Assembly: GCA_949288415.1 (NCBI GenBank) | Contig: CASEKE010000045.1 | Location: 1-64,000, forward strand | DNA length: 64,000 nucleotides | Reading direction: 5' to 3' | From: an uncultured Spirochaetales bacterium | GTDB lineage: Bacteria; Spirochaetota; Spirochaetia; Sphaerochaetales; Sphaerochaetaceae | Shown: positions 26,154 through 63,065 of the stretch, in pieces | Numbering within the stretch: the first letter of the stretch is position 1 | Layout: every line of letters begins with the position of its first letter | Notes under the pieces: generated by a model | What the model was told of the DNA's origin: nothing | Seen by the model: only the letters and a program-made list of their open reading frames with translations | Databases searched by the model: none | Translations under genes and position numbers: made by a program

Positions 26154-26894
26154 ATGCAGAAATCACAGATAGTCCTAGAGGAAATAAGATCGAGGATCGA
26201 AAGCGGCATCTGGAGAAGCGGTGCCATGATTCCTACCGAGGCCGAGCTATGCTCGATGTTCGCGGTAAGCCGCATAACGATCCGCAAAGCTCTTGAGGAG
26301 CTGGCGGAAAAAGGATACATAAGACGCGTACAGGGAAAAGGTACGTTCGTATCCTCGAATTCCGTCCTCAACTCGGGACAGTCACCTCTCGGATTTTCCC
26401 AGCATATGGCGGAATATGGAATCGCAGTAAGTTCTCGCCTGGTCTCCGCAGAACTCATCGTCCCCCCATACGAGATAAGACGAAAGCTGTTCCTACGCGA
26501 AAATGAAAACGAAGTCTGGCATTTCAGAAGATTGAGATTCGTAATGGAAAGGCCGATAGCCCTCATGGACAGCTTCATCAGGAAGCCGATCGGCGACATG
26601 ATGCATGAGATGGAACTTGGGAACTCTTCCTTCTTCGAACTGTTCGAAAAGATCACAGGAGAGAAAATCGTAGAGACAATCGGCTCCGTGACCGCGATAA
26701 TACCGGAGAAGGACATTTGCGATCTGATGCAGGTTGAATACCCGTCGGCTCAGCTTCTATACAAGAATACGGCATATCTGGAAAGCGGCACGCCGATACA
26801 GTTCGACCATTCGATCTTCAACAGCAGAAGATACGAGTTCACGGTGGATCTGAAGGACAATCCCATCGTCCCTATTTCTCCCATTTCCCCTTGA
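26154..26894 (+). CDS. GntR/UTRA-family transcription regulator
   Basis: Regulator of 246 residues, HutC subfamily. The winged helix (residues 5-70) has IPTEAELCSMFAVSRITIRK and GYIRRVQGKGTFVSS. The UTRA effector domain (about 90-235) includes EVWHFRRLRFVMERPIALM and FDHSIFNSRRYEFTVD. UTRA domains usually sense sugars, sugar phosphates or purine-like metabolites. The 3' end overlaps the convergent LOG gene by 23 bases. It could control the divergent epimerase/exporter genes or the neighbouring NADAR operon; the sequence does not settle it. Confidence 0.92.
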   Translation: MQKSQIVLEEIRSRIESGIWRSGAMIPTEAELCSMFAVSRITIRKALEELAEKGYIRRVQGKGTFVSSNSVLNSGQSPLGFSQHMAEYGIAVSSRLVSAELIVPPYEIRRKLFLRENENEVWHFRRLRFVMERPIALMDSFIRKPIGDMMHEMELGNSSFFELFEKITGEKIVETIGSVTAIIPEKDICDLMQVEYPSAQLLYKNTAYLESGTPIQFDHSIFNSRRYEFTVDLKDNPIVPISPISP

Positions 26895-27441
26895 CGAACT
26901 CGAAAGAATCGAAATAACCGAATATCTTTTCCACATCGTTTGAAAACAGCAGGAAATCACGGAATTCCTGTTTTATGAACCCATCCTGTAACATTCTATC
27001 CAGCTGCATCTGCAAACCGGAGAAAAATCCTTTGTAATCATAGAATGCAACAGGTTTGCCGGAGAAACCTATCTGGTACCAGGATGATATCTCCGCACCT
27101 TCGTCAAGGGTCCCTATTCCACCGGGGAAAACTATGAACGCATCTGCCTTTTCGTACATGAGCGCCTTGCGCTGATGCATTGTATCGACTAGATGGAATT
27201 CCTTAGAGAGTTTCTCGTCTCCTTGTTTGTAGAATCTTCTTGGTGATACGCCTATTGTCCTGCAGCCATGCTCCGTCATGTAGGCAGAGATATCACCCAT
27301 CAAGCCTCTGCGTCCTCCGCCGTAGACAAGCCCCCAGCCTCTTTTTTCCAAGGCCTGCCCAAGATCGACGATCGACTTTCTCAGATCGGGATCGTTGCCA
27401 TAGTTGGAACCGCAGAAAACAGCTACGTTGTCTATCTTCAT
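26872..27441 (-). CDS. LOG-family nucleoside 5'-monophosphate phosphoribohydrolase
   Basis: A 189-residue protein of the LOG family (formerly called lysine decarboxylases). Members cleave the N-glycosidic bond of nucleoside monophosphates, giving base and ribose-5-phosphate. The Rossmann start VAVFCGSNYGNDP, GLVYGGGRRGLMG near residue 40 and the signature FPGGIGTLDE near residue 105, with catalytic Glu and Arg neighbours, are intact. It is the last gene of the NADAR operon and its ATG overlaps the stop of the PHP gene (ATGA). In this setting it may act on a base released from the imported compound. Confidence 0.9.
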   Translation of the reverse strand: MKIDNVAVFCGSNYGNDPDLRKSIVDLGQALEKRGWGLVYGGGRRGLMGDISAYMTEHGCRTIGVSPRRFYKQGDEKLSKEFHLVDTMHQRKALMYEKADAFIVFPGGIGTLDEGAEISSWYQIGFSGKPVAFYDYKGFFSGLQMQLDRMLQDGFIKQEFRDFLLFSNDVEKIFGYFDSFEFVKGKWEK

Positions 27442-28922
27442 CGACTTCTCCTTTCATCGTCGATCCATATCGGGTTCGACAGCAGCCTCATGCTTTCTGC
27501 ATCACGCCATGCCATGCCCCAGAATTTCGCTTTCACAGTATCCTCGAAAAACTCCGTACGGACGAATGCGAATTTCTCCTGGATGAATCGTATGCAACCT
27601 TCGTTCATGGCGAATCGATATTCTTGCCGACCTTCCTTTTCGGAACCATTGAAATACTTCACATCGAAAAGCTGTGCAGAAGCCATTATGAAAAGATTTC
27701 CGGAAGGATTGTCCCACACGGAAAACGAAAAATCAACCGGTCCTCCATAGTATGGAATTCTCTGGCCCATCTCATAGCGTTTCCCGCGGTATTCGGCATG
27801 AAAATCCATCTTAGAACTCCCCATGGCAACATAGACCCTTCCTCGCCTCAGACCTTCCACTATGCCGCGGGAAGACAGTTCGGGAGCATGGATATATGTG
27901 AATATTCTTCCGAACGACCAAGGTCCGTCTTTCTGGTCCGGGTTATGGCTATCGGAAGATCCGACTCCTATCATACGGTACCCCTGACACAGATATCCGT
28001 CGTAAAGTGTTGGATACTCCAACGATACAGCGGCATCAGGTGTGGCCCAGAGATCGATCAGATCGCTCTTTTCCGGAGGGAAACCGGAATATCTCCAGCC
28101 GACCATGCCGCTTAAAGGGTGGTTGATCCCGAAAATTCCTCCCTGCGAATGGATTTCATCGGCAATGCTCTCCATAGTCGGACGTTTCCGAAGATCCAGG
28201 AATGCCGCAAGTTCCTCATTGTCGTCGACAAGCGGATCGATCCAGGTCTTGCAGGCATGTACATTGGCATGCCCATAGTCTCCGGATATCTCCATCGACG
28301 CAATAGGAAGAACTCTGTGTCTTCTGTAGCATTCCTCGATTCTCAGCCAGTGACTTGCCGTGAAATGGTCGGTTATAGCGACAAAATCCAACCCGACCTT
28401 GTCGGCACTTTCAAGAACGCTTTCGACATCGGTACGCCCGGTGCTTTCGCTGGAATGGACATGCAGTTCTCCGCGATACCACCCTTCTGTTCGGCATCTG
28501 ACTTCATCCATGAAAGAATAGAAAAGTCTTGGGACATTGGTTGCATGGGCAGTATCGCCGCATACCTTCACGACTACGTCTATGTCCTCGAAGAACCGCC
28601 TCTTGTATAGGACAAGTTTCCATATCCCGGACGGTATCGGTCCTGGGATGCAACCAGGGGAGGCCGAGTTCTCGCCTATCCTGTAGGTCTCGACACCTTC
28701 CCCTGAAAATCCCTCGGAGGCCTTGAATATGCGTACATGTCCGAGACTGTCGAACAATGCCACAGGAATTTGAGCCTCCTTGACGGAACAGCGCGAAATC
28801 GAGATCTCAAGGGCGCCCAGACCTTCCCCAACGAAGAAGGCAAGCCTCCCGTACTGCAACGATTGCCTGCCGTCCCTGGCCTGGTAAAGCAGTCTTATGC
28901 CGTCCTTGAAGATCTCCGTCAT
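27438..28922 (-). CDS. CehA/McbA-type PHP-domain metallo-hydrolase
   Basis: A 494-residue protein. The N-terminal 165 residues are beta-rich and hold no obvious catalytic motif. The PHP domain follows with metal ligands in RGELHVHSSESTG near residue 170, FVAITDHF near residue 200, FGINHPLSG near residue 275 and GVGSSDSHNPDQKDG near residue 325. PHP enzymes of this group hydrolyse phosphoesters or carbamate-type esters. No signal peptide is seen, so it is probably cytoplasmic. It follows the binding-protein gene by eight bases and overlaps LOG, so its substrate is likely tied to the imported compound. Confidence 0.82.
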   Translation of the reverse strand: MTEIFKDGIRLLYQARDGRQSLQYGRLAFFVGEGLGALEISISRCSVKEAQIPVALFDSLGHVRIFKASEGFSGEGVETYRIGENSASPGCIPGPIPSGIWKLVLYKRRFFEDIDVVVKVCGDTAHATNVPRLFYSFMDEVRCRTEGWYRGELHVHSSESTGRTDVESVLESADKVGLDFVAITDHFTASHWLRIEECYRRHRVLPIASMEISGDYGHANVHACKTWIDPLVDDNEELAAFLDLRKRPTMESIADEIHSQGGIFGINHPLSGMVGWRYSGFPPEKSDLIDLWATPDAAVSLEYPTLYDGYLCQGYRMIGVGSSDSHNPDQKDGPWSFGRIFTYIHAPELSSRGIVEGLRRGRVYVAMGSSKMDFHAEYRGKRYEMGQRIPYYGGPVDFSFSVWDNPSGNLFIMASAQLFDVKYFNGSEKEGRQEYRFAMNEGCIRFIQEKFAFVRTEFFEDTVKAKFWGMAWRDAESMRLLSNPIWIDDERRSR

Positions 28923-28930
28923 CGCTCCTC

Positions 28931-30271
28931 CTAGTAAATGAACTCTCCGAAGCTCTTGGCCTCGTCGATCTCGCTCTGGAAGAGAGCCGTATATTCTTCG
29001 AGTACCGTCTTCGCATCCTCGTTGTTGAGGATGATCCTACTCATCATATCATTTTCCCTATTGAAAACATCAAGTATGTTCTTCGTGACACTCGGAACAG
29101 GTCTGCCGAATTCAAGCTGGTCGAGCATCTTCTGATATGCCGGATTGGCTGCCAGATATTCCTGGACATCCGGTTCGTCCAGCACGCTCATCCTGACAGG
29201 AAGGTTCTTTGTCTCCATGAAGAACTCCTTGACGATGTCAGGAGAAGACATGAATTCGAAGAATTTCAGGCAAGCCTGCTTCTCCTCCTCCGTCACGCCG
29301 GAGGTGATTGCAAGGTTTCCGCCTCCGATCGTTATGGCATTTCCACCCTTTCCTGCCGGGATGAACTCGAAAGACCAGTCGCAGTCAAGAAGAGACTCCG
29401 CGGTTGGAGCGAACGAAGATGTCTGGAACACTGTCGCCACATGCCCGTCAAGGAAAGCGCCGTTGAGTTCCTCGAATCCTCCGACAAGAGCAGGAGGCAT
29501 GAGAAGAAGACCTTCGTTGTTCATCTGCTGGAAATAGGTCATCAGGTCCACGATCTCGGGACTATCCAGAAGGACTTCGCCATCCTGCGTGCTGATCTCA
29601 GCACCCCAGGAATATGCAATAGCATCGAATATGAACTGATTGAAGAAGGAATACCCGTAATAGTAGTCGTCTCCAAGACTCTTGATCTTCTTGGCGTCCT
29701 CCAGGAATTCATCCCATGTGGCGGCGACACGATCGATTCCGGCCTCTCTGAGAAGATCGTTGTTGACATAGAAGCCCTGAGTGCTCCTGTTGTACGGGAT
29801 GGCGTACAGCTCTCCGTCATATTTGAGATCAATGAGCATAGATGGATAATAGTCCGAAATAAGATCTTCGCTCAAAAGGCCCTCGAGAGACGAAAGAAGA
29901 CCAAGCTGTGCATAGTATGGAACATCGATGTAATCGCAGATCAGCATGTCCGGAAGATTGTGCGCATTTGCAGCTGCGGCGACCTTCTGTCTGAGAATCG
30001 TGTAACCACCCTGATGGATGACGTTCACCACGACATCGCTCTGACTTTCATTGAATGCGGCAACCTGCTTGTCGAATACGCTTGCCTTTGTTCCGCTGAG
30101 AGAACTCCAGAGTTCTACGGTCACAGGCTCGGATGAACCTGTCGCCGTCGCAGCGGTCGTAGTTGCGGTCACAGTCGTTGCCGCATCGGAAGAGGTCCCG
30201 CTTTTCGAGCAGGCTACGAGCATCATCGCAGCGGCGAAAATCGCCATGACGACAAAAAGTTTCTTTTTCAT
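28931..30271 (-). CDS. Sugar-type binding lipoprotein of the NADAR operon
   Basis: Solute-binding lipoprotein of 446 residues. The signal peptide MKKKLFVVMAIFAAAMMLVAC ends in a lipobox, then a Ser/Thr-rich linker. The body follows CUT1 binding proteins (VELWSSLSGTKASVFDKQVA, WDEFLEDAKKIKSLGD, FFEFMSSPDIVKEFFMETK). Its closest look is to glycerol-3-phosphate/sugar binders (UgpB type). GGAG precedes the ATG at 30271; the frame is open far upstream but overlaps the permease gene. It delivers substrate to the two permeases encoded just upstream. Confidence 0.93.
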   Translation of the reverse strand: MKKKLFVVMAIFAAAMMLVACSKSGTSSDAATTVTATTTAATATGSSEPVTVELWSSLSGTKASVFDKQVAAFNESQSDVVVNVIHQGGYTILRQKVAAAANAHNLPDMLICDYIDVPYYAQLGLLSSLEGLLSEDLISDYYPSMLIDLKYDGELYAIPYNRSTQGFYVNNDLLREAGIDRVAATWDEFLEDAKKIKSLGDDYYYGYSFFNQFIFDAIAYSWGAEISTQDGEVLLDSPEIVDLMTYFQQMNNEGLLLMPPALVGGFEELNGAFLDGHVATVFQTSSFAPTAESLLDCDWSFEFIPAGKGGNAITIGGGNLAITSGVTEEEKQACLKFFEFMSSPDIVKEFFMETKNLPVRMSVLDEPDVQEYLAANPAYQKMLDQLEFGRPVPSVTKNILDVFNRENDMMSRIILNNEDAKTVLEEYTALFQSEIDEAKSFGEFIY

Positions 30272-30291
30272 TTTTTTACTCCTTTGGGCTA

Positions 30292-31143
30292 TCAGCCTTT
30301 TATTCCACCGTCCATGTAGTCGTTCATGAAATACTTCTGAAGACACAGGAACAGAATTATCATCGGAAGAAGGACGTAAAGCGTGGCTGCCATCAGAAGA
30401 TGCCATTGCGTTCCGCCATCGCTGACTTCCTTCATCATCACTATCCCGACCGGCAGGGTTCTCCTAGAGACGCTGTTTGTCATGATGAGGACCCAGAAAT
30501 AGTCGTTCCATCGCCATTTGATCGCCATGATCGCATAGGCTATCAGGCCAGGCTTGACCAGGTGCGGCATTATCGAGAACGCAATTCTCAGATGCCCGGC
30601 CCCTTCCATCTTTGCTGCCTCGATATAATCCTTCGGCAGACTTTGCATCGACTGTCGTAGAAGGAAGATTCCATATGCATCCGCCGCGAACGGTATAATC
30701 AGGCCCAGATAGCTGTCAAGCCATCCGAGTTTCGTCATGATCGAATAGAGGGGAATTATCGCAACCTGCGTAGGCATCATCAGTACCGCAAGAACGAACA
30801 TGAACGCGATTCTTTTGCCGGGAAACCGGAGTACGCTGAACGCATATGATGCAAGAAGCGCAGTCATGAGCTGAAGAAACGTTGCCGATATCGATACGAT
30901 CAGGCTGTTCACCGTATATATTCCGAAAGGTTCGATCGAGAATATTTTTATGAAGTTTCCAAAAGCCGGGGGGAAAGGAAGATGCATCGGCCGTTTCAGC
31001 ACCGCAGCCGACGACGACTGCAGACTCGTCAGTATCATCCATAAGAACGGAATCATGACAAGAGCCGACACGACGGAAAGAAATACTATCCTTATTATTT
31101 TGAAAGCCTTCTCGGAAGGCGACGATGCTGCATATTCTTTCAT
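30292..31143 (-). CDS. Carbohydrate ABC transporter permease, MalG/UgpE type
   Basis: Permease of 283 residues with about six segments. The EAA loop reads YIEAAKMEGAGHLRIAFSIM around residue 180, and the C-terminus QKYFMNDYMDGGIKG resembles UgpE-like proteins. GGAGG six bases before the ATG. It begins one base after the stop of its partner permease. Confidence 0.94.
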   Translation of the reverse strand: MKEYAASSPSEKAFKIIRIVFLSVVSALVMIPFLWMILTSLQSSSAAVLKRPMHLPFPPAFGNFIKIFSIEPFGIYTVNSLIVSISATFLQLMTALLASYAFSVLRFPGKRIAFMFVLAVLMMPTQVAIIPLYSIMTKLGWLDSYLGLIIPFAADAYGIFLLRQSMQSLPKDYIEAAKMEGAGHLRIAFSIMPHLVKPGLIAYAIMAIKWRWNDYFWVLIMTNSVSRRTLPVGIVMMKEVSDGGTQWHLLMAATLYVLLPMIILFLCLQKYFMNDYMDGGIKG

Positions 31144-31144
31144 T

Positions 31145-32035
31145 TCAGTCCTCCTTCCTCGACGAGATAACCTGCTGCAATATGGTGCAGACGAGAAGAA
31201 TCAGGAACAGTATCACGGACAAAGCCGATGCATATCCCGCCTTGGAACGTCTGAAGGCCATCTGGTATATGTAAAGGTTCAGGACGTTCGTCGAATCGTA
31301 CGGACCACCACCTGTCATAACGGAGACTATGTCGAATACCTGCATAGCCTGTATGAACGATGTCAGCAAGAGGAAATAGGTGGTAGGTTTCAGAAGCGGA
31401 AATGTGATTCTCACCATCTTCTGGAACGATGATGCCCCGTCTATCGTGGCAGCTTCGTATACATCGTTCCCGATGCCGGCAAGTCCGCTTGAATAGATGA
31501 GCATCACATAGCCCATCGATCTCCAGACGGAAAGGGAAATGACGATCCACATAGCATAGCCCTCCGTCATCAGCCAACGTGGACTTTGTTTGCCGAGCAT
31601 GGAGAAAATCTGCCCCGACAGACCGAAGTCGGGATCGAATATCCACATCCAGAGTATCGCGACCGCACTGGCTGTCGTCACGTTCGGGACAAAGAACATA
31701 GTCTTGAGGAAACTTCTACGTTTCGATGGCTTACCGAACAGGGCTATCGCCACCATCAGGCCCAGAAAGACCGAAATCAGAGTGGAAAAAATAGTATAGA
31801 AGAATGTGTTCCCCAGAATCTTCCAGAATGCCGGCGAAGTGAATATCGACTTGTAGTTCGCCATGCCGACGAACCTTTTCTCCGGGGAAAAAAGGTTCCA
31901 ACTGGTCATGCTTATCCTGAAATTGTCGATGAGCGGAATATATTTGAATACCAGAAAAACGAGAAAGGCAGGCAGCAGGAACAAAAATGCCGTAGCCACC
32001 TCCTTTTTGCTGTAGCGTTCCTTGGAACCGATCAC
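31145..32035 (-). CDS. Carbohydrate ABC transporter permease, MalF/UgpA type
   Basis: Permease of 296 residues (FLFLLPAFLVFLVFKYIPLI near the N-terminus). The EAA loop is VYEAATIDGASSFQKMVRI around residue 200. The start codon is GTG, with GGAGG six bases ahead of it lying inside the last codons of the upstream gene. Three bases separate it from that gene, so coupling is tight. Confidence 0.93.
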   Translation of the reverse strand: MIGSKERYSKKEVATAFLFLLPAFLVFLVFKYIPLIDNFRISMTSWNLFSPEKRFVGMANYKSIFTSPAFWKILGNTFFYTIFSTLISVFLGLMVAIALFGKPSKRRSFLKTMFFVPNVTTASAVAILWMWIFDPDFGLSGQIFSMLGKQSPRWLMTEGYAMWIVISLSVWRSMGYVMLIYSSGLAGIGNDVYEAATIDGASSFQKMVRITFPLLKPTTYFLLLTSFIQAMQVFDIVSVMTGGGPYDSTNVLNLYIYQMAFRRSKAGYASALSVILFLILLVCTILQQVISSRKED

Positions 32036-32038
32036 AAC

Positions 32039-33712
32039 TCACCTCCTCTGCCTTTGTTCAAGGCAGTTCCTTATTCTATCCATGACGACACGCGTCACGG
32101 CATATGTCGCATCCACGCCATCGAGCGCAAGCCCGGTCGAGAGTCTGGATCCGCTAAGTGGATTGTCCGATACGTAATGCACAATTCCGAAATCGAAGCT
32201 GGAAGATGCGAAAGTGACGGATTCATTCTCCGGATACCGCTTCGATTCGAGTATCTCATAGACCGCAGATAGATACGGTCCGGCCTCCATCTCCATATCC
32301 GTTATACCGTCGAGCAGAAGGTCATTCAGAAGCTGTCTGTTCTGGAGGAAAGTTCCAAGTACGGTCACCGCCTTCTGGTTGTCGTATATTCCATGCATCT
32401 CCGGATCTATGTAGCGGAGAATGCTCTCTGCAGTTATTGCATTCGGAAAGAAATACTGGTTCCTCGTATGCTGATCGTATATACACGAAGGAATCAGAAT
32501 GTCTCCTCGCTCGGCAAAAAGCGATGCCGCCTTGCCTATGACGTATACACCGAGAATCGACGCGACATGCTCACTGATCTTGTTGAGTATGAAATATGCC
32601 GTCCTTCCGAGGGGATAATCGATGTTCAGAATCAGGGCATCGGTATCGGTAGTCCAATTCTCCAGCCCTATTCCAGTATCTCTTCCCGAAAGCGATGCTG
32701 AGAGCTTTCCCAGATCTATTATCTGGGTGGGAACATCAAGAGTCTGGAGGCTCCTTATGCGAAGTATGCCGACGCTTTCCTCGTAGCGTATCCTCCTTGC
32801 TGTCACCGCCTCCCCATTCTCCGAGGCTTCGTACTTCATCAGAAGATAGTATAGGATGTTCTTCCGTTGCAGTTCGGAGGTTTCTTTGTCTCGGTATTCA
32901 CCTACGAGATCAGAGAGCGAATCGTCGGACGAAGCGAACGAGAGTATCTCATCCGATATGCTTTCGGCAAATCCGGAGATGAGATTGATCAGACTGTGCG
33001 TATTCGAGGAGACGAAATAGATTCTCCTGTTCTCGAGGTCGGGGCAATGTCTGATGATCTGCTGCCACCATATCTCGGTCTCCTTCCTGTAGCGGCAATA
33101 GCTGGCCTCATAGTTCTGTACGCTGAAATTGCACGGCTCTTCGGCCATGCGTCTGATGGCCTTCGCATACGGCTTCAACTTCGAGGCATCAACAAGAAGA
33201 ATTCCGGAAGCTACCCTGGCAATTTCCTCATCAGCCATCCCGGAAGTGAATCTGATGCCGGATCTCTGGAAGTGGGAATGTGCTTTGTTCCACTCTATCT
33301 GCAGACACATCAGCGACGGAATGACATCGTCGATATCCGACTTTGACGACATAAAAGCCACAAGAGTCGACTCTCCATCGAAAAGATATCTCCTTCGTCT
33401 GGAGCTGGCGAAAGCCTCCTGCCAGGAGGATACTGCGACGCCGTTCTCCTCAAAGAACGTCTCGCTCTGTCCGAGAAGGATCTTCCTTGTGGCGAATATG
33501 CATTCAGGCAGACGCTGTGTCACATATCTGAAAGCCGCATAGTCGAACACGTCGTCGCATGCGTGCTCATGGATGCAGGGCTGCATTCCCGCATAGGCGA
33601 CCTCAAGCCTCTTGAGGGGGATCGCCCCGGAGCTTCTGAGCGTCATGTAGGTCAGCTTCATGAAGCGGCTGATGCTCTCGTTCGATTCGATTCCTATCCT
33701 CCTCGGGCTCAT
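32039..33712 (-). CDS. Two-part protein with nucleoside-phosphorylase-like C-terminal half, function unknown
   Basis: A 557-residue protein I cannot place in a named family. The first half is helical and contains HEHACDDVFDYAAFRYVTQR and WWQQIIRHCPDLENRRIYFV. From about residue 330 the pattern recalls the purine nucleoside phosphorylase/MTAN superfamily: ILNIDYPLGRTAYFILNKIS, a GVYVIGKAASLFAERGDILI stretch like the IxxGxAG...GDxVxP region, GITDMEMEAGPYLSA like the M-E-M-E-A nucleoside-binding motif, and HYVSDNPLSG like the catalytic S-D. I infer N-glycosidic bond chemistry on a base or nucleoside, not proven. GGAG before the ATG at 33712 lies in the NADAR gene's end; the frame is open 87 bases further. 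Confidence 0.6.
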   Translation of the reverse strand: MSPRRIGIESNESISRFMKLTYMTLRSSGAIPLKRLEVAYAGMQPCIHEHACDDVFDYAAFRYVTQRLPECIFATRKILLGQSETFFEENGVAVSSWQEAFASSRRRRYLFDGESTLVAFMSSKSDIDDVIPSLMCLQIEWNKAHSHFQRSGIRFTSGMADEEIARVASGILLVDASKLKPYAKAIRRMAEEPCNFSVQNYEASYCRYRKETEIWWQQIIRHCPDLENRRIYFVSSNTHSLINLISGFAESISDEILSFASSDDSLSDLVGEYRDKETSELQRKNILYYLLMKYEASENGEAVTARRIRYEESVGILRIRSLQTLDVPTQIIDLGKLSASLSGRDTGIGLENWTTDTDALILNIDYPLGRTAYFILNKISEHVASILGVYVIGKAASLFAERGDILIPSCIYDQHTRNQYFFPNAITAESILRYIDPEMHGIYDNQKAVTVLGTFLQNRQLLNDLLLDGITDMEMEAGPYLSAVYEILESKRYPENESVTFASSSFDFGIVHYVSDNPLSGSRLSTGLALDGVDATYAVTRVVMDRIRNCLEQRQRR

Positions 33713-33714
33713 TT

Positions 33715-34155
33715 TCAGTTCTCCTTGAGTTCGTCGCGCAGTTTCATAAGAAGCTTTCCGAGCATGCTCTTGCCGGTTCCGTCGGCTCCGATTCCCCAAT
33801 AATAGTCCTTCTGGGAGTTCTCCATGAGAATCGCATCCCCTGTATCCAGAAGAAGCTTTCGAAGATCATCATGCTGTGTAAATTTCGCACGTAACACCTT
33901 CATCATGACATCATCCTTGCACGCAATCCAATCAGGGCGGTATATGCATTCTTCACTGTTGCCAAGATTCTTGGCATCGTCGCATGTCGCCGCAGCCCGC
34001 ACCTTCTCCCTGAAGTTCTCGTCAAGGCTCTTGTTCGCCTGGTAATAGTGCTCGCTCGAAGGCCATATCTTGCCGTCCAGATCGATATCTACCAGCCAGT
34101 AGTTCGAAAGGTAACCGTAGTCCTCGTATTCATAATAGAACTTTATTGTATTCAT
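33715..34155 (-). CDS. NADAR-family N-glycosidase
   Basis: A 146-residue protein of the NADAR (YbiA-like) family. Members hydrolyse N-glycosidic bonds of riboflavin-pathway intermediates or remove ADP-ribose from guanine. Family marks are YLSNYW near residue 16, WPSSEHYYQANKS near residue 31, AKNLG, RPDW, VMMKVLRAKFTQH near residue 84 and YYWGIGADGTG near the end. The usual G-x-N-x-L-G of the last motif reads GKSMLG here, so Asn is replaced by Ser. First gene of a seven-gene operon with its own strong promoter; GGAGG precedes the ATG. No DarT-type toxin gene is adjacent, so a catabolic or housekeeping role seems likelier than antitoxin. Confidence 0.88.
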   Translation of the reverse strand: MNTIKFYYEYEDYGYLSNYWLVDIDLDGKIWPSSEHYYQANKSLDENFREKVRAAATCDDAKNLGNSEECIYRPDWIACKDDVMMKVLRAKFTQHDDLRKLLLDTGDAILMENSQKDYYWGIGADGTGKSMLGKLLMKLRDELKEN

Positions 34156-34190: not shown

Positions 34191-34219
34191 ATCATACGTC
34201 CGTAAAATATAGCTGTCAA
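34191..34219 (-). promoter_or_regulatory. Promoter of the NADAR operon
   Basis: On the minus strand, TTGACA (34219-34214) and TATGAT (34196-34191) are exactly 17 bases apart. A leader of roughly 30 bases with GGAGG follows. It is one of the best promoter matches in the window. Confidence 0.8.
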
Positions 34220-34489: not shown

Positions 34490-34507
34490 TGCCATGTTTG
34501 AAACCTT

Positions 34508-34593
<86 letters not shown>

Positions 34594-34600
34594 TTTTTTT

Positions 34601-34703
34601 CCGGCAACAGATCCCAAGCAATATGAGCCGCCCAACCCCGTCAGGATCGGAAGATAGCAGCGGTAAGCGGAATTCATATGTGACTCGGTCAATTTGTTGC
34701 CGG
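34601..34703 (+). ncRNA. ffs: Signal recognition particle RNA (small bacterial type)
   Basis: The ends CCGGCAACA and TGTTGCCGG pair over nine bases, closing a molecule of about 103 bases. The apical domain carries GTCAGGATCGGAAGATAGCAGC, close to the universal GTCAGG..CGGAAG..AGCAGC core that binds Ffh. TTTTCTTTTTC after the closing stem acts as terminator tail. It starts seven bases after tRNA-Ser, so the two are probably cotranscribed. Confidence 0.9.
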
Positions 34704-48811: not shown

Positions 48812-49750
48812 TCAGGACCGGAGCGAAGACGCGGGGGCGAAAATTCTCATGCAACGTGCAAGCAGGCATATGTCATACTCCATTCCGTCATTGATGGCCA
48901 TCATCTCGCCGTCCACATGGCTTGTAATGTTCGCACGTTCGGAAAGTATCCTGACCTTTCTGACCTTTGCAGTATGGAATGTCTTCTTGTTGTCGACATG
49001 GGTTCCCCTGATGAACTGCATTGCAGCCACGAACAGAGAGAAGCTGGAAAGGGGCCTTTTGGTATACATCAGATCGAAGTATCCGTCATCCAGAACGGCA
49101 TTTGGAGCAAGCATGAATGCGCTGCCCATCCTTCTTCCCAGACAGATAGACACCTGCTGAGTCTGAAGAAGCACTTCCTCTTCGTCGTCGATCAGTTTCA
49201 GAAGATATGGTTTGGGTGGAGCCAAAAGGATTCCGATGAAAGCCACTATATAGCTGGGCATGCCGTTGAGATGCTTGAATCTCATTGCACGATAGTTCAC
49301 AAGAGGCTCGAAACCGTACCCGTTCCCGTTCAGAAAGTACCTTGAACTGTCCTTGACAAGGTCTGTCACCTTCCCGAGATCCACTTTCCTGACACAGCCT
49401 TCCACTATTATCTGGGCAGCCTTCCTGACGTCGGTCGGAATGCCCAGAGAGTATGCATAATCGTTGCCTCGACCTATCGGGATGATTCCAAGCTTGACAC
49501 GCTCCGGATTGTTCGATTTCATTATCCCGTTCACGACTTCGTTGACCGACCCGTCACCGCCTGCCGCAACAATCACGTCGAAGCCTTCGTTGGCCGCCTG
49601 CGTGGCAAGCTCCTCGGCATGGTCCGGACCTCTGGTATATGCGACGGAGACACTTATCGAATGCTCCTTGAAAATGTCGACTATCTCGCGGGCCTTTTCC
49701 ATTCCCTTGCCTTTCTTGGCATTCGGATTGATTATCAGCAGAACGTCCAT
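48812..49750 (-). CDS. Diacylglycerol kinase-family lipid kinase
   Basis: A 312-residue DagK/YegS-type kinase. LLIINPNAKKGKG at the N-terminus, the nucleotide-binding VIVAAGGDGSVNEVVNG near residue 60 and IIPIGRGNDYAYSLG near residue 90 are intact; FDLMYTKRPLSSF and HVDGEMM lie in the C-terminal beta domain. It phosphorylates diacylglycerol or a related lipid at the membrane. GGGGAG before the ATG. Divergent from the MATE gene. Upstream of the GH63-like gene but separated by AT-rich DNA with a separate promoter. Confidence 0.92.
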   Translation of the reverse strand: MDVLLIINPNAKKGKGMEKAREIVDIFKEHSISVSVAYTRGPDHAEELATQAANEGFDVIVAAGGDGSVNEVVNGIMKSNNPERVKLGIIPIGRGNDYAYSLGIPTDVRKAAQIIVEGCVRKVDLGKVTDLVKDSSRYFLNGNGYGFEPLVNYRAMRFKHLNGMPSYIVAFIGILLAPPKPYLLKLIDDEEEVLLQTQQVSICLGRRMGSAFMLAPNAVLDDGYFDLMYTKRPLSSFSLFVAAMQFIRGTHVDNKKTFHTAKVRKVRILSERANITSHVDGEMMAINDGMEYDICLLARCMRIFAPASSLRS

Positions 49751-49805
49751 GGCTTCTCCCCTGTACCAATTCTACAAAATGGTTTTTCCTCTTGCAACAA
49801 TGCTC

Positions 49806-49834
49806 TTTAACCTTTCATTTCTTTCTGATAGATT
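49806..49834 (+). promoter_or_regulatory. Promoter of the MATE gene, predicted leaderless
   Basis: TTTAAC (49806-49811) and TAGATT (49829-49834) are 17 bases apart; the ATG follows eight bases later and no ribosome site is present. Confidence 0.6.
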
Positions 49835-49842
49835 ACATTGCT

Positions 49843-51189
49843 ATGCAGTACGGACATCTTTACAGGAGACTTTTCTCTATAACATTTCCAATAATGATAC
49901 AGAACCTGATCTCCTCGTCTCTTTCTTTCGTCGATACTCTGATGATCGGGCAGATCGGGCAGGACCAGATTGCCGCCGTCGGCATAGCGAACCAGGTATT
50001 CTTCCTGATCAGTCTCTTCTTCTTCGGCATCGCAAGCGGTACAAGCATATATCTCAGTCAGTACTACGGTGCAGGAGAGACGGACAAGATGGAAAAGACC
50101 ATGGCATTTGCAACGGCTATCTGTCTGGCAGGAGCTATGGTCATAAGCGCGTTCTCATTCATCAGACCGGATCTGATCGTCCGTATTTTCACAGAAGATC
50201 CCGCAGTCATCGAACCCGGTGTGGAATACCTCAAGGTAGTCGCATTCAGCTATATGTTCTCTGCCGCCTCATCCACGCTGTCGATCGGATTCAGAAGCAT
50301 CAACAAAGCCCATATACCTATGACGGTCACGCTGATATCGCTGACGCAGAACGCGATTGGAAACTACTTGCTGATCTTCGGCATAGGACCGTTCCCCGAG
50401 ATGGGCGTTGCCGGAGCGGCTCTTTCTACAGCACTCGCCCGCCTCGTAGAGCTTGTCGTGCTCATCGCCTTCACCTGGGGAGGGAAAGCCCCTTTCGCAT
50501 TCCGCGACAGGAAGGCATTCTCCTGGGACAGGGACTTCAGGATAGCATTTTCGTCGACAAGTCTTCCCGTGATGTTCAACGAAGTCTTCTGGGCTATCGG
50601 CATGATATTGTACAAGGTCGCATACTCCAGACTCGGTACCGAAGCGCTGGCGACGATCAACATAACGGAAAGCATAGCGAACTTCTTCTTCATAGCGATG
50701 ATGGGAGTAGGAAACGGAACCACCATTCTGCTTGGAAACATACTCGGTTCAGGAGACCGGAATACGGCAATCGCATTCTCGAAGAAGATATTGGTACTAT
50801 CTGTCGGAATAGGATTCTTGATGCTTGCCCTGGAATTCTCGACCGCACCGCTGTTCGCCTCCTGGTTCAACGTAGGTCCGGCGGTATTCGCATCGGCGGT
50901 GACATGTCTCAGGATATGCGCCCTTGCCCAGCCGCTCAAGAGCATCAACATGACGAACGTGGTCGGAATACTTCGCTCGGGTGGAGATACGAAGGCGGCG
51001 ATGCTGTGCGAGATCATCGGACTTTACGTCGTGGGAGTTCCTCTGTCTTTCATTGCAGTGCTCGTCTTAGGCCTTCCCCTTCCGGTAGTCTATGCCGTGA
51101 CCGCACTCGAGGAACTGACGAAGCTGATATTGGGAATGCATCGATACAGAAAAGGAATCTGGGCAAAAGTCCTTTCAGGCCGGGCTTGA
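49843..51189 (+). CDS. MATE-family efflux protein
   Basis: A 448-residue multidrug/toxin exporter with twelve membrane segments. The N-terminal MATE signature SITFPIMIQNLISSSLSFVD and GQIGQDQIAAVGIANQ, and the matching second half beginning FSSTSLPVMFNEVFWAIGMI, are present. It uses a Na+ or H+ gradient, substrate unknown. A longer open frame starts at 49792, but the promoter boxes lie within it, so the ATG at 49843 is preferred. Confidence 0.93.
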   Translation: MQYGHLYRRLFSITFPIMIQNLISSSLSFVDTLMIGQIGQDQIAAVGIANQVFFLISLFFFGIASGTSIYLSQYYGAGETDKMEKTMAFATAICLAGAMVISAFSFIRPDLIVRIFTEDPAVIEPGVEYLKVVAFSYMFSAASSTLSIGFRSINKAHIPMTVTLISLTQNAIGNYLLIFGIGPFPEMGVAGAALSTALARLVELVVLIAFTWGGKAPFAFRDRKAFSWDRDFRIAFSSTSLPVMFNEVFWAIGMILYKVAYSRLGTEALATINITESIANFFFIAMMGVGNGTTILLGNILGSGDRNTAIAFSKKILVLSVGIGFLMLALEFSTAPLFASWFNVGPAVFASAVTCLRICALAQPLKSINMTNVVGILRSGGDTKAAMLCEIIGLYVVGVPLSFIAVLVLGLPLPVVYAVTALEELTKLILGMHRYRKGIWAKVLSGRA

Positions 51190-51235
51190 TTTCTACGGCT
51201 TATGTGCCATTGTTCCACAACTTTCCTTTCGCCTG

Positions 51236-51244
51236 TGCTATAAT
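51236..51244 (+). promoter_or_regulatory. Extended -10 promoter of nagA, predicted leaderless
   Basis: TGCTATAAT ends eight bases before the nagA ATG. No -35 box at normal distance and no ribosome site are seen. Confidence 0.65.
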
Positions 51245-51252
51245 CAATCAAT

Positions 51253-52350
51253 ATGAAAAAAATTCTTAAAGGCGTACTCGCCGTTACACCAGACGGCACG
51301 GACAATCTGGACATCACCATCGAAGATGGGATCATCGCAAGCATCGACAAAAGCAAGGAAAAGACACCTCTGATCGCAATACCCGGATTTATCGATACAC
51401 ACATCCACGGCTTCGGAGGAAACGGCACCGAGGATTGCAAGCCGGAATCGATTCTCGGAATGTCCGAATCTCTGATCAAGTTCGGCGTCACAACATTCTT
51501 CCCGACGATCTACACCGACGTGGAGAGCAAGATGAGGAAAAGCATCCATGCCTGCTACGAGGCAAAGGGCAAGGAAAAGGGCGCTACGATCGGCGGCATC
51601 CACATAGAAGGACCATTCATCTCTCCGAAGCGCATCGGAGCCCAGAACCCGGACGGAAGAAAAAATCCTTCCAAGGAATTCTTCGAGCTGCTGCTATCGG
51701 AGGCTCCAGGTCTCGTAAAGGCCATGACGATGGCCCCGGAACTTCCCGGGACGGAGGAAGTGGCAGCCTGTGCGGCAGAGAACAAGGTGAAGCTTCTCTG
51801 CGGACACACGAACGCGACCTACGAGGAGACGCTGAAGGGACACGAGCTCGGAGTAAGCCATGGAACGCACCTGTTCAACGCGATGGTCGGACTGCATCAC
51901 AGAAAACCCGGAACGGTCGGAGCGATACTTACGAGCGACATGACGACGGAGATAATCGGCGACGGGCTGCACACGCATCCAGCGATTCTCAAGATGGTCG
52001 TGGACCTGAAAGGGTCCGATAGAGTCGTCATCGTCACGGATTCGCTGAGGCCGACGGCACAAACGGAAGGAAAACTTACGGCAAACGACGTCGAAGTCGA
52101 GCTTCTCAACGGACTCTGGGTCACAAAGGGAAATCCGGATCTGATACAAGGCTCCGCTGCGACCATGCTAAAAGGATTCCAGAATCTGATCGGCTGGGGC
52201 ATATCGCTCGAAGATGCCGTCAAGCTAACCTCCTCTACTGCCGCCAGACTCTATGGACTTGACGATGTGGGAACTATTGAAGTAGGAAAGAAGGCAGATA
52301 TCGTAGTCCTTAACATGGACTATACCATCAACGAGGTAATAAAAGGCTGA
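51253..52350 (+). CDS. nagA: N-acetylglucosamine-6-phosphate deacetylase
   Basis: Amidohydrolase of 365 residues removing acetate from GlcNAc-6-phosphate. Metal and substrate motifs are IPGFIDTHIHGFGGNGTED near residue 45, IGGIHIEGPFISPKRIGAQN near residue 120, LCGHTNATYEE near residue 180, GTHLFNAMVGLHHRKPG near residue 200 and the catalytic Asp in VIVTDSLRPT near residue 260 (commonly TDA). It heads an operon with two peptidase-like genes, so amino sugars and peptides of cell wall or mucin may be processed together. Confidence 0.94.
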   Translation: MKKILKGVLAVTPDGTDNLDITIEDGIIASIDKSKEKTPLIAIPGFIDTHIHGFGGNGTEDCKPESILGMSESLIKFGVTTFFPTIYTDVESKMRKSIHACYEAKGKEKGATIGGIHIEGPFISPKRIGAQNPDGRKNPSKEFFELLLSEAPGLVKAMTMAPELPGTEEVAACAAENKVKLLCGHTNATYEETLKGHELGVSHGTHLFNAMVGLHHRKPGTVGAILTSDMTTEIIGDGLHTHPAILKMVVDLKGSDRVVIVTDSLRPTAQTEGKLTANDVEVELLNGLWVTKGNPDLIQGSAATMLKGFQNLIGWGISLEDAVKLTSSTAARLYGLDDVGTIEVGKKADIVVLNMDYTINEVIKG

Positions 52351-59099: not shown

Positions 59100-60032
59100 T
59101 TATTCATCAAACAAGTCTTCGTCTTTACTCAGGAAGGAATATATTCTCTCCAATTCCTTCTGGCTACGATACCTAATCTGTAGCTTCCCTCTTCGCAAAG
59201 ATCCCTTGATTTCCACTTTCGCTCCGAGAACGGATACGAATTTTTCCTCGACACGGATTATATCCGTATCCTTCTCCTTTTTCTTCCCTTTTGGAACCAC
59301 CTTGTGTCCGGCATTGTATTCCGAGGCAAGATGTTCCGCCTCTCTGACAGTAAGCCCATCTTCGACAATCCTGTTTCTCAGAAGCCCATAGTCGGCAGGA
59401 TTCGTCAAAGAAAGGATTGCCCTTGCGTGTCCGGCAGACAGCAATCCCGATATGACATCATCCTTTATGCTGTCCGGAAGCACCAGAAGACGAAGGGAAT
59501 TGGCAACGGCAGAGCGTGATTTGCCGACTCTCTGCGCAACTTCTTCCTGGGTGTATCCGGATTTCTGAATAAGCTGCTGATAAGCAAAAGCCTCTTCCAT
59601 CGGATTCAGGTCCTCACGTTGGACATTTTCTATCAAAGCAATTTCAGCTCTTTGCAGTTCGGTAAAGTTCTTTACTATGACTGGAATCTCCTGCAGACCC
59701 GCCATTTCCGCCGCTCTATATCTTCGCTCTCCGGCAACGATCGAATACTTTCCTGGAGCATATTCTTCTACTATGATCGGCTGAATTACACCCTGTGTCC
59801 TTATCGAATCGGCAAGTTCCTTTAGCTTTTCTTCGTCGAAGTTTTTTCTGGGCTGATTCGGATTGGGTTTCACGTGAAACAACGAAACATTCAATACCTC
59901 GTTGTCCTTGGATTCGAACTCGTGCGGAAGAATCGTCGCATTTATGACATTTTCTATCTGGGCATCGTAGTCGAATCCATTCAAAAGGGATCCCATTCCT
60001 TTTCCGAGTCCGTGCTTCTTATCAGTAGACAC
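59100..60032 (-). CDS. parB: Chromosome partition protein ParB
   Basis: CTP-dependent DNA clamp of 310 residues that loads on parS. The CTP-binding motif VAGERRYRAAEMAGL lies near residue 95, LIENVQREDLNPMEEAFAYQ near residue 125, and the helix-turn-helix YTQEEVAQRVGKSRSAVANS near residue 150. The C-terminal dimer domain follows a Lys-rich linker. The start is GTG at 60032, with AGGAGG nine bases ahead inside parA; the two genes overlap by 11 bases. A parS site is embedded at the codons for LFHVKP. Confidence 0.96.
   Translation of the reverse strand: MSTDKKHGLGKGMGSLLNGFDYDAQIENVINATILPHEFESKDNEVLNVSLFHVKPNPNQPRKNFDEEKLKELADSIRTQGVIQPIIVEEYAPGKYSIVAGERRYRAAEMAGLQEIPVIVKNFTELQRAEIALIENVQREDLNPMEEAFAYQQLIQKSGYTQEEVAQRVGKSRSAVANSLRLLVLPDSIKDDVISGLLSAGHARAILSLTNPADYGLLRNRIVEDGLTVREAEHLASEYNAGHKVVPKGKKKEKDTDIIRVEEKFVSVLGAKVEIKGSLRRGKLQIRYRSQKELERIYSFLSKDEDLFDE
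59866..59881. repeat. parS site within parB
   Basis: GGTTTCACGTGAAACA matches the bacterial parS consensus TGTTTCACGTGAAACA at 15 of 16 positions. It is read as LFHVKP in ParB, as in other bacteria whose parB gene carries a parS. Confidence 0.93.
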
Positions 60033-60783
60033 GACTTGCAACCTCCTTTGCCAATTGAGCATACGCTTTCGCGCCTGCACTCCCCTTGTCGTAGATGTTT
60101 ATCGGAAGTCCGTGGCTTGGAGCCTCGGAAAGCCTGGACGATCTTGGAATGACCGTCTCGAAGACAAGATCCTTGAAATATCCTGTAACGTCATCGACCA
60201 CATCCTGGTTGAGTAGGATACGTTTGCTGTACATGGTAAAAAGTATCCCCATGATTCTCAATTCAGGATTGAGACTTCTTCTGACATTCGTAATCGTTCG
60301 CATCAGAAGATTGAGACCTTCCATAGCCATGTATTCGCATTGTAGCGGTATGATGACCGCATCCGCCCAGACTAAGGCGTTCATAGTCTCAAGTCCCAAG
60401 GAAGGAGGACAATCGAGAAGTATATAGTCGAACATCTCATCAAGACATGAGAGCGCGTTCTTCAGATAGAACTCTCTATTATCCTCATCAACCAATTCGA
60501 TAGCCAAGCCGGCTGTATCGACAGAACCCGCAATAAGAGAAAGATTCTTCACTATTGTCTGCTGCAAAGCGTCCTTTGCATTTTTTTTGCCGATAACAAC
60601 CTGGTATATGGTACTCTTCCTTCCATCCCCTGAGACAGCACCTGTAAGATTAGCCTGAGCATCAAAATCAATCAGCAGAACCCGGAAACCCATCTCCGCA
60701 AGGCAGGAGCCCAGATTCACGCAGGTCGTAGTCTTTCCGACTCCTCCCTTCTGGTTAAAAAAGATGATCTTATGAGCTTTCAT
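60022..60783 (-). CDS. parA: Chromosome partition ATPase ParA
   Basis: A 253-residue Soj/ParA ATPase. The deviant Walker A FNQKGGVGKTTTCVNLG comes at residue 8, Walker B DYILLDCPPSLGLETMNALV near residue 115, and the C-terminal FETVIPRSSRLSEAPSHGLP near residue 205. An upstream ATG (60822) is open, but the promoter -10 box lies between the two, so the start at 60783 is preferred. It works with ParB and the parS sites to move origins apart. Followed by parB with an 11-base overlap. Confidence 0.96.
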   Translation of the reverse strand: MKAHKIIFFNQKGGVGKTTTCVNLGSCLAEMGFRVLLIDFDAQANLTGAVSGDGRKSTIYQVVIGKKNAKDALQQTIVKNLSLIAGSVDTAGLAIELVDEDNREFYLKNALSCLDEMFDYILLDCPPSLGLETMNALVWADAVIIPLQCEYMAMEGLNLLMRTITNVRRSLNPELRIMGILFTMYSKRILLNQDVVDDVTGYFKDLVFETVIPRSSRLSEAPSHGLPINIYDKGSAGAKAYAQLAKEVASRVY

Positions 60784-60792
60784 GATTTTAAT

Positions 60793-60822
60793 ATTATGAA
60801 AAATATCATCACTTGTCGACAA
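60793..60822 (-). promoter_or_regulatory. Promoter of parAB, possibly leaderless
   Basis: On the minus strand TTGTCG and CATAAT are 18 bases apart, and the -10 box ends nine bases before the parA ATG. No ribosome site is visible. An alternative pair, TTGAAA and TGATAT with 17 bases, lies a little further upstream and would give a short leader. Confidence 0.5.
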
Positions 60823-60835
60823 CTATTTCAAAAAC

Positions 60836-60864
60836 TTGACCGAGGCTAACTCTTAAAGTATATT
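60836..60864 (+). promoter_or_regulatory. Promoter of the NifU-like gene
   Basis: TTGACC (60836-60841) and TATATT (60859-60864) with a 17-base spacer, divergent from parAB. The leader contains AAGGAGAGG. Confidence 0.8.
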
Positions 60865-60899
60865 GATACATACATTGAAGCAAAGGAGAGGGAAACCCT

Positions 60900-61124
60900 A
60901 TGGAAGATAAAGTAAAGGAAGCTATCGAAGCCATCAGACCGGCACTTCAGAATGACGGAGGAGACATTGAATTCATCAGGATGGAAGGAAAGAACGTATA
61001 CGTAAAACTCGTTGGAGCATGTGCAGGATGTCCAATGAGCCAGCTGACTCTTTCCAACGGAGTTCAACGTTATGTGAGGGAGACCGTAGATCCAGAACTA
61101 GTCATTGTGAACGAAACATTCTGA
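60900..61124 (+). CDS. NifU-type iron-sulfur cluster scaffold
   Basis: A 74-residue protein equal to the NifU C-terminal domain. AIRPALQNDGGDIEFIRMEG opens it and the cluster ligands are the two Cys in GACAGCPMSQLTL near residue 43. Two such proteins bind one 4Fe-4S cluster for delivery to target enzymes. It is monocistronic, with its own promoter and terminator, between parA and the parS region. Confidence 0.93.
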   Translation: MEDKVKEAIEAIRPALQNDGGDIEFIRMEGKNVYVKLVGACAGCPMSQLTLSNGVQRYVRETVDPELVIVNETF

Positions 61125-61149
61125 TAGGCAGAACAAACACACGAACCAA

Positions 61150-61178
61150 TCCAGCCTCGACAAGGCTGGATTTTTCTT
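61150..61178 (+). terminator. Intrinsic terminator of the NifU-like gene
   Basis: TCCAGCCT and AGGCTGGA form an eight-pair stem around CGACA, followed by TTTTTCTTT. It ends where a perfect parS begins. Confidence 0.92.
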
Positions 61179-61194
61179 TGTTTCACGTGAAACA
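61179..61194. repeat. parS site, perfect consensus
   Basis: TGTTTCACGTGAAACA, 16 of 16, directly after the terminator of the NifU-like gene. Confidence 0.97.
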
Positions 61195-61756
61195 CAGTAA
61201 AAAAACAAAACAAATTATACTTTCCAACATTATACGACAACCTAAAACATGACAGACCTAAACAAACCCATAAAATACTGTATACAAAATAGGGTTTTGA
61301 AAGAATATGCCAAGTGCTTTCATAAAAGAATGTTGCCCAAATTTTCATACAAACATCAAATAACATTATTTAGGTATCACAACCATAAAATAAAAATTAC
61401 GCAAAATTCTATATCAAGGTTCAATAAAATGCAAAAAACCATCTCTAATATAAACTTACAATTCTCTATCTCAGAGTAAAGCAACAAAGAGTCAAAACCC
61501 ACCTGACGACTGAATTTACTTATATTGTCAGAACATCGCCATAACAAAAAAAATTTCCGTTTAATTAAGAAAATAGATATTTTTTTCCAAGCAATATCGA
61601 TACTGAACTAATTTCCAAAATTTTCTTCGAAAAGTGAAGAATTCCTTCTAGCCTTATTCAACTCGAGAAAGAACCTTGGGTACAAGTATGACCACGACAA
61701 AAACAATGGCAGATCATATCGTACAGCTCCGTATCAAGTTGCTTCAAACTTTCTTT

Positions 61757-61772
61757 TGTTTCACGTGAAACA
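61757..61772. repeat. parS site, perfect consensus
   Basis: TGTTTCACGTGAAACA, 16 of 16, within the AT-rich region. Confidence 0.97.
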
Positions 61773-62050
61773 CACACGCTTAAACACGGACATGTTGTGC
61801 AAAAAAGAATAGATATAATTTGACAACGCATTATATTTTGCTGGATTCAGGGCGGTTTTCGAGGTTTACAATTGAGACTGTAAATATTTTTTTCTATATA
61901 TATCAAGTAATTATATCAATTCATCGTACAGCAAACTTATACTGTTTCATACTATATCGTATTATTTTCCTTATTAAAGTTTTTTTTTGGAGTTTTCTTG
62001 CGCGTTCATTATTTTAAGAAAATTTAGCGAACAGTCAAAATTATAAATGC

Positions 62051-62066
62051 TGTTTCACGTGAAACT
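62051..62066. repeat. parS site
   Basis: TGTTTCACGTGAAACT, 15 of 16, last base differs from consensus. Confidence 0.93.
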
Positions 62067-62504
62067 CCTAATTTATATCTAGCAATAATGAAAATCAACG
62101 TTACCGATCTTTTATAAAAAAACGAATCACACATATGAATAGAACGCTGTTCGGAGACTTTCATGCCATACATCAAACATTATTCTGGCATATGACATAC
62201 GAACACCTCTGCGACAAAACCCATGCACATGAAAACATCAAGCAGAAGTGTTTTTTTATGATTACAAAAAGGCATTCTATCACAAATCAAGTAACACACA
62301 CTTACTTCTTGGGATGGACGGACAATGCTGCTATTCCAAATTGCTTTTTATCATTATTGCATTTTGACAATCGAGCACCAAAATGCTTAAACAACGTTGA
62401 GACACAAAACATAATTATACAATCAGGACTCTTCGTCGTTTTCGAAAAACATTCATAAAATAGATTAATAAAAAAAGAGAAAAGCCGCTGAAGAAAAAAA
62501 ACAG

Positions 62505-62520
62505 CGTTTCACGTGAAACA
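62505..62520. repeat. parS site
   Basis: CGTTTCACGTGAAACA, 15 of 16, first base differs from consensus. Confidence 0.93.
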
Positions 62521-63065
62521 TGGAAAACATGCTACAGAACCATCAGGTAGAAACATACAAAAAAAGGTACGGAAACATAAAAAAGTCAATTCCATTGTAT
62601 CAGCTATACCCCTGATATGACCGGTTCTGGTAAGTTTTTTTGTTTTCATTTCTTTTTTTCCAAAAACATCAAATAAACGCTTAAAATGCGGTTTTTGAGC
62701 TTAAAATACTATTGATAGAAACAGATTCTAAGTATCTTTTACACCAATTCTATACTATCTAATAGGGTACTTTTCCCATGCTTGGAATAAATATCATTTT
62801 CTCACTGTTTTTATGGCATTTAAACACCACGAAATAGCCATTGCGAGTTTTGCCGTATGGAGTCTTTTGGATACGGAAAGTATAAAGATCGCCACAAAAG
62901 AAGGTAAGTAAATATAAACACCTATGCACAACTGCTTAGAAAAGATGTTCATTCCGCTTTGTTACATGTGGAGTTGTCTTATTTTCCAATTGTTGATGAG
63001 AAAAAAGTCCACGTCATCGGACGTGGACCGGAAAACAGTTTTAATGACAATCAATCTTCTGCGTT

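Follow-up and report, generated by a model that had tools for sequence, protein, structure and literature searches.

The gene under study occupies positions 32039-33712 of the minus strand in the window, which is the whole stretch of 64,000 nucleotides that was analysed. Its frame runs from an ATG at 33712 to 32039 and encodes 557 residues, with AAGGAGAACTGAAA, an AAGGAG-type site, upstream of the start. A longer frame beginning with a TTG at 33799 would run into the adjoining NADAR gene, and the plus strand at 32039-33712 contains stops. The protein matches the Pfam family DUF6909 (PF21850) over its full length, covering profile positions 1-533 of 535 with 542.1 bits against a cut-off of 27 (E 1.5e-162). 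Given this match and the relatives present across genomes the frame is not a chance one, and the 557-residue protein proposed at this place by a sequence-only reading of the DNA is real. The motifs quoted in that reading were all found in the minus-strand translation, which carries GKAASLFAERGDILIP at residues 393-408, MEMEAGPY at 473-480 and VSDNP at 514-518.

The operon and its surroundings

The operon lies on the minus strand and begins with a gene of the NADAR/riboflavin-intermediate N-glycosidase type (33715-34155; ORF, Pfam, NCBIfam and synteny), located 2 bp before DUF6909. The genes that follow DUF6909 are two ABC permeases with BPD_transp_1 domains, one UgpA-like (permease 1, 31145-32035) and one UgpE-like (permease 2, 30292-31143), an ABC substrate-binding protein (28931-30271), a PHP-type metallohydrolase of the CehA/McbA family (27438-28922) and a TIGR00730/LOG-type gene, a possible nucleotide phosphoribohydrolase (26872-27441). 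These were assigned by Pfam, NCBIfam and synteny, with the exception of the binding protein (ORF, Pfam and homologue alignment), whose start was shifted from 30406 because the homologues in L205 and L206 begin to align only at residue 48. With the start at 30271, the six junctions from NADAR to LOG are five gaps of 2, 3, 1, 20 and 8 bp and then an overlap of 4 bp. A convergent GntR/UTRA regulator (26154-26894, plus strand; Pfam and synteny) is conserved with the module. About 36 bp before the NADAR start there is a promoter-like TTGACA-17-TATGAT (34191-34219, minus strand), identified by consensus match only, in a scan giving 14 sites versus 10.3 in shuffles. Riboswitches at gathering score were absent from the window, from the stretches of three congeners and from loci L083, L094 and L100.

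In the genus, 4 of 48 genomes (the window's among them) contain DUF6909, and all four carry the eight-gene module in the same order. A permease-1-like gene at E<=1e-60 is present in 14 of the 48; its identity is 72-73% in the three congeners with DUF6909 and no higher than 42% in all the others. In the window dnaX lies roughly 1 kb away from the start of NADAR; in the three congeners it was not found in the 3.7-5.8 kb of NADAR-side flank, so the window copy sits elsewhere than the congener copies and the module behaves as a unit. Just beyond the operon are a tRNA-Ser(GGA) and then a small SRP RNA gene (34507-34702, plus strand). A tRNA-linked insertion was considered, as the window module adjoins this tRNA-Ser, and rejected, as ARAGORN found no tRNA in the congeners' three 14-kb stretches.

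A defence reading was likewise not adopted, PADLOC returning nothing for the DUF6909 protein. The NADAR gene matches the candidate defence model PDC-M42C and, below cut-off, the NCBIfam anti-phage NADAR model; the cyclic-nucleotide-binding part of a same-class relative (L003) has a weak match to TIR effector models, which comes through that domain.

Elsewhere in the window, parB, parA and a gene of gyrase A C-terminal type (59100-63935, minus strand) surround an AT-rich stretch (windows of 39-40% G+C), and the region from 60.8 to 63.1 kb contains no ORF of 120 aa or more. An open frame of 601 residues (49464-51266, plus strand) has no Pfam match at 0.001 and is overlapped by a frame of 465 residues.

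Distribution, relatives and gene context of DUF6909

The sequence-only reading had suggested that a fused or degenerate phosphorylase within a transporter operon would be a new architecture. The architecture is not new to the window, being that of a Pfam family which occurs in several phyla. Of 392 genomes from the phylum, probably Spirochaetota, with the window's own counted among them, 26 contain true members; the search gave 27 hits at E<=0.001, one of which (L027) is a P-type ATPase and was discounted. In the named genome collection at least 556 matched stretches encode a relative, perhaps not all of them distinct genes, and the best 80 of these are mostly from Chloroflexota. The plasmid and phage collections gave no match at 1e-5. 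The Pfam entry is without function, and neither DUF6909 nor PF21850 was mentioned in the literature searched. No NCBIfam model matched the window protein, and 44 C-terminal family rows gave only stray NCBIfam matches. PF01048 (PNP_UDP_1) was not matched by the window protein in the Pfam scan; it matches 10 of the 44 C-terminal rows at E<=1 (best 1.1e-6), and one relative, L004, passes its cut-off (25.7 against 25.1).

Two alignments were used. The first covers the phylum, with G271, G154 and G195 left out from among the 26 genomes that have true members; the second comprises 69 of the 80 named loci, L080 and L116 being dropped as truncated and L094, L095, L101, L107, L108, L114, L115, L125 and L133 by choice as near-duplicates. 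In a tree built from about residue 205 onwards, the 15 same-class rows from outside the window's genus form one clade (100/99), separated by a 100/100 branch from the window and its congener, which group with Chloroflexota, Myxococcota, Planctomycetota and other named rows. Long branches are flagged in this tree, the position of L028 and the deep joins are unsure, and it shows groupings, neither root nor direction of transfer. The window protein is 34-42% identical to the named rows versus 23-28% to the same-class rows.

In the alignment, fourteen of the 15 same-class rows show an N-terminal cyclic-nucleotide-binding domain (CNB); in the fifteenth, L018, only 199 bases of contig precede the match. 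The five same-class rows scanned all gave a Pfam match for the domain. Its G-E pair is present in all 14, and 12 of the 14 also have the Arg expected to bind the nucleotide. The CNB was not seen in four scanned rows of other classes (L028, L020, L023 and L024), and the window protein is without it. No cyclase was recognised among the scanned neighbours of CNB members, a scan that covered part of the neighbours. A gene of about 320 aa lies upstream in seven of the same-class loci L003-L017, where a CNB precedes DUF6909 (for example L036, 4558-5541, minus strand) and has no Pfam match at 0.001.

In the distant relatives, gene context was studied in the best 80 of the at least 556 named stretches, counting same-strand genes within 2 kb. 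Of the 71 loci whose upstream flank is that long, 25 have a xanthine-dehydrogenase-type (XDH-type) gene there; downstream the figure is 18 of 65, and 22 of the 59 loci with both flanks have such a gene on one side or the other. The pieces identified are FAD/2Fe-2S and Mo-binding subunits and XdhC-like, YqeC/MobA-like and YqeB genes. The FAD-subunit gene ends within 20 bases of the start of the DUF6909 match in 13 of the 28 loci that have it. As the subunits score below the NCBIfam equivalog cut-offs, the substrate of these XDH-type enzymes is not fixed. Selenium-dependent hydroxylases are reported to be implicated in clostridial hypoxanthine breakdown (PMC11448449). The remaining 37 of the 59 loci have no widely shared same-strand partner listed. 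Other neighbours are a cluster of purine nucleoside phosphorylase type (identified in L097) at 4-7 kb in 11 loci and, in six loci, a gene from a single cluster that lies on the reverse strand no more than 0.7 kb downstream and is valyl-tRNA-synthetase-like in L057. In L100 DUF6909 lies in a PnrA/Bmp-type transporter cluster, between the permeases and a Bmp/PnrA-like binding protein, which was met near DUF6909 only there. No XDH-type gene was identified in the stretches from members of the same phylum, the same-class ones included. The genome of the window has four molybdenum-hydroxylase (PF02738) matches (G000, contigs C22, C32 and C45), one of them about 117 kb away on the window's contig.

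Predicted fold and active-site residues

An AlphaFold2 model of the window protein, built from 70 aligned sequences, is confident throughout (mean pLDDT 92.7, pTM 0.92). The fold prediction is strong for residues 211-557 (32042-33082, minus strand), which are modelled as an NP-I nucleoside phosphorylase/nucleosidase domain. Foldseek gave 415 PDB matches at E<=0.001 and the best 50 of the 415 are all NP-I: the MTAN 3bl6 ranks first (E 3.0e-6), and the top rows also include AMP nucleosidase (2guw, 1t8s) and uridine phosphorylase. VIA aligned residues from about 211 to 552 to entire NP-I chains: uridine phosphorylase 6k8p with Z 18.4 (225 residues, rmsd 2.9), adenosine phosphorylase with Z 17.7 and Salmonella AMP nucleosidase 2guw_B with Z 17.2 (244 residues, rmsd 3.9). 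The highest rows are phosphorylases, but the differences in Z are small and the fold alone therefore picks no NP-I subfamily. Secondary structure in the model and the aligned length suggest that a largely helical insertion interrupts the domain at roughly 250-315. Structure prediction and fold search thus agree with the phosphorylase-type alpha/beta fold that had been proposed for the C-terminal part; the limit of 330-557 given for it was too narrow, the domain beginning near 211, about 120 residues earlier.

The N-terminal domain, residues 1-208 (33089-33712, minus strand), which the same reading had described as lacking a recognised match, indeed has no significant solved-fold match. Folded alone (pLDDT 93.1, pTM 0.89) it gave no Foldseek match at E<=0.001 (best 0.36) and no VIA Z above 3.2; AMP nucleosidase 7uwq was aligned with Z 3.1 (102 residues, rmsd 4.2). 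Its conserved residues are R67, RRR 105-107, D129, E140 and K143. The idea that it is a decayed second NP-I half, forming a pseudo-dimer, was dropped on these values: NP-I chains make up 43 of the best 50 Foldseek rows, yet the best E is 0.36. At the profile level, too, residues 1-208 resembled neither NP-I nor the C-terminal half (E 0.15-0.82).

In sequence searches of solved structures the single protein had no match and the C-terminal profile retrieved only eight CorA rows (E 0.87-1.3), taken as chance; neither search retrieved an NP-I structure. Aligning to individual E. coli sequences with hhalign was of no use. The whole-family profile retrieved cyclic-nucleotide-binding proteins as the best 60 of its 260 matches because CNB rows were included in it.

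Four motifs form the putative active site. They are the loop S235-S-N237-T-H239-S240 after the first strand (32993-33010), identified by family alignment and comparison with AMP nucleosidase, and three identified by profile alignment and conservation: G393-K394-A...G403-D404 (32501-32536), the E474-M475-E476 of the NP-I ribose-binding and catalytic Glu (32285-32293), and S515-D516-N-P518 (32159-32170), with the base-contacting Asp in an SDxP like that of AMP nucleosidases, all on the minus strand. Residues S235, N237, G393, K394, G403, D404, E474, M475, E476, S515, D516 and P518 are invariant in 92 of 92 distinct rows from two subfamilies, and H239 differs in one row. In alignments with E. coli-anchored NP-I profiles GKA...GD falls on the GS/GT...GD stretch (RD in PNP), E474-M475-E476 on E-M-E and S515-D516 on S-D, a clear placing of the motifs though at weak score: single-pair E values are 0.0013-0.0042 with a probability of 8-19%, and 0.018-0.054 with 1-3% for AMP nucleosidase. 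The Glu and Asp named in the sequence-only reading therefore align, at that weak score, to catalytic positions, and being invariant they do not fit the degenerate phosphorylase that it raised as one option.

Two features separate DUF6909 from phosphorylases and favour a nucleosidase over the phosphorylase named before. Position 391, which the weak profile alignment places at Arg87 of PNP (Arg91 of UP), the Arg that binds phosphate in phosphorylases, is V, I, L, F, S or M and never Arg in the 92 rows. All 92 DUF6909 rows and all 9 AMP nucleosidases have the SDxP motif, which is missing from each of 14 distinct phosphorylase/MTAN-type sequences (15 rows, with one gene twice). These PF01048 enzymes otherwise share with DUF6909 the fold, the E/D-M-E motif and, in purine-type members, S-D.

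Among the closest known counterparts is AMP nucleosidase (Amn, EC 3.2.2.4; E. coli b1982, Klebsiella 7uwq), which resembles DUF6909 in the NP-I domain, in the M-E and S-D-x-P motifs, in lacking the phosphorylase Arg and in having an additional domain ahead of the NP-I domain. In DUF6909 this N-terminal domain has no AMNp_N (PF10423) match in a Pfam scan at E<=0.1, and DUF6909 also differs in the probable insertion and in having no NCBIfam name. A report on the Klebsiella enzyme assigns N205, W383, M404, E405 and D428 to the surroundings of the base and sugar and R381, K436, H188' and Y189' to the phosphate site, and describes active-site conservation in distant homologues as confined to M404, E405 and D428 (PMC9584410). 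The E. coli enzyme has identical letters at these numbers. N237 was set opposite N205 by eye; the weak profile alignments established no counterparts in DUF6909 of the four phosphate residues. A short Bacteroidota AMP nucleosidase (L185 from Parabacteroides; 1ybf comes from Bacteroides) has G-K-x-x-x-L...G-D-x-x-L-P and S-D-K-P like DUF6909; L185 differs in its length of 258 aa, its lack of an N-terminal domain and its weak profile similarity.

Proposed function and alternatives

The reading put forward here, with a probability of roughly 0.55, is that DUF6909 is an active NP-I enzyme which cleaves a purine nucleoside, or more probably a purine 5'-nucleotide, by hydrolysing its N-glycosidic bond. 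From the predicted nucleosidase-type fold and the catalytic residues kept, it is likely an active base-releasing enzyme and probably releases purines. A hydrolytic, AMP-nucleosidase-like reaction is favoured because SDxP is common to AMP nucleosidases and missing from phosphorylase/MTAN-type sequences. The enzyme is read as a hydrolytic purine nucleosidase, possibly one for 5'-nucleotides, and purine nucleotide hydrolysis is the preferred reaction; we infer substrate, chemistry and regulation alike. Glu476 would hold the ribose, Asp516 would assist the departure of the purine and Asn237 would stand at the place of the nucleosidase Asn. Water would be the attacking group, since the phosphate-binding Arg of phosphorylases is missing, and a 5'-phosphate may be held by a basic patch, either K394 or R67, RRR105-107 and K143 of the N-terminal domain. 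As with AMP nucleosidase, the products would be the free base plus either ribose or ribose 5-phosphate. Beside XDH-type genes the enzyme would feed them purine. Against the reading stand the weak profile similarity to NP-I, the Z values that favour no subfamily, and the XDH-type genes, which are close in only 22 of the 59 loci with both flanks and were found beside no same-class member. In the window, the ABC importer, the NADAR N-glycosidase, the LOG-type phosphoribohydrolase and DUF6909 may together scavenge imported N-ribosyl compounds. The operon (26872-34155) joins to one importer three families that cleave N-glycosides, NADAR, NP-I and LOG, which have unrelated folds.

Three other functions were weighed. 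A true phosphorylase, using phosphate as nucleophile and yielding ribose 1-phosphate as PNP or uridine phosphorylase does, is closest to the sequence-only reading and agrees with the highest Z values; the residues at position 391 and the distribution of SDxP speak against it, and it is considered unlikely. A catalytically dead NP-I protein, serving as a nucleotide sensor or regulator, would fit the CNB fusions within the same class and the lack of consistent metabolic neighbours in those CNB members that were scanned for them. Such a protein is hard to reconcile with a catalytic Glu and Asp invariant across two subfamilies at 23-28% identity, or with genes placed between those of a molybdenum hydroxylase, and its probability is low.

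The enzyme might instead be a nucleosidase for another N-riboside, such as 5'-methylthioadenosine/SAH, a modified riboside or an ADP-ribosyl compound. The best Foldseek row, an MTAN, and the adjoining NADAR gene, together with DUF6909 in four of four genomes, point in this direction, as does the reversal of guanine ADP-ribosylation by NADARs described in PMC11125620. However, a BLAST search with the window NADAR at 1e-8 had no hit in the stretches fetched for the best 80 named loci, and the XDH-type linkage favours ordinary purines, which leaves this substrate range improbable.

The family was already in Pfam and the fold is a known one; the fold assignment, the catalytic reading and the gene contexts are what is added here for DUF6909. 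A wider proposal, tentative and rather doubtful as a whole, is that DUF6909 represents a second, separately built class of purine nucleotide nucleosidase with its own N-terminal domain and a helical NP-I insertion, bearing in one lineage a CNB fusion that gates it, so that a second messenger would switch purine breakdown directly, and that the sporadic window module joins NADAR, NP-I and LOG enzymes to an importer. The CNB fusions, if they bind, would mean direct cyclic-nucleotide control over nucleotide breakdown. An AMP-nucleosidase-type enzyme could also fill a gap in the phylum, since the AMNp_N domain of the classical AMP nucleosidase was found in 0 of the 149 genomes scanned. In this way a widespread unnamed family becomes a testable purine-releasing enzyme.
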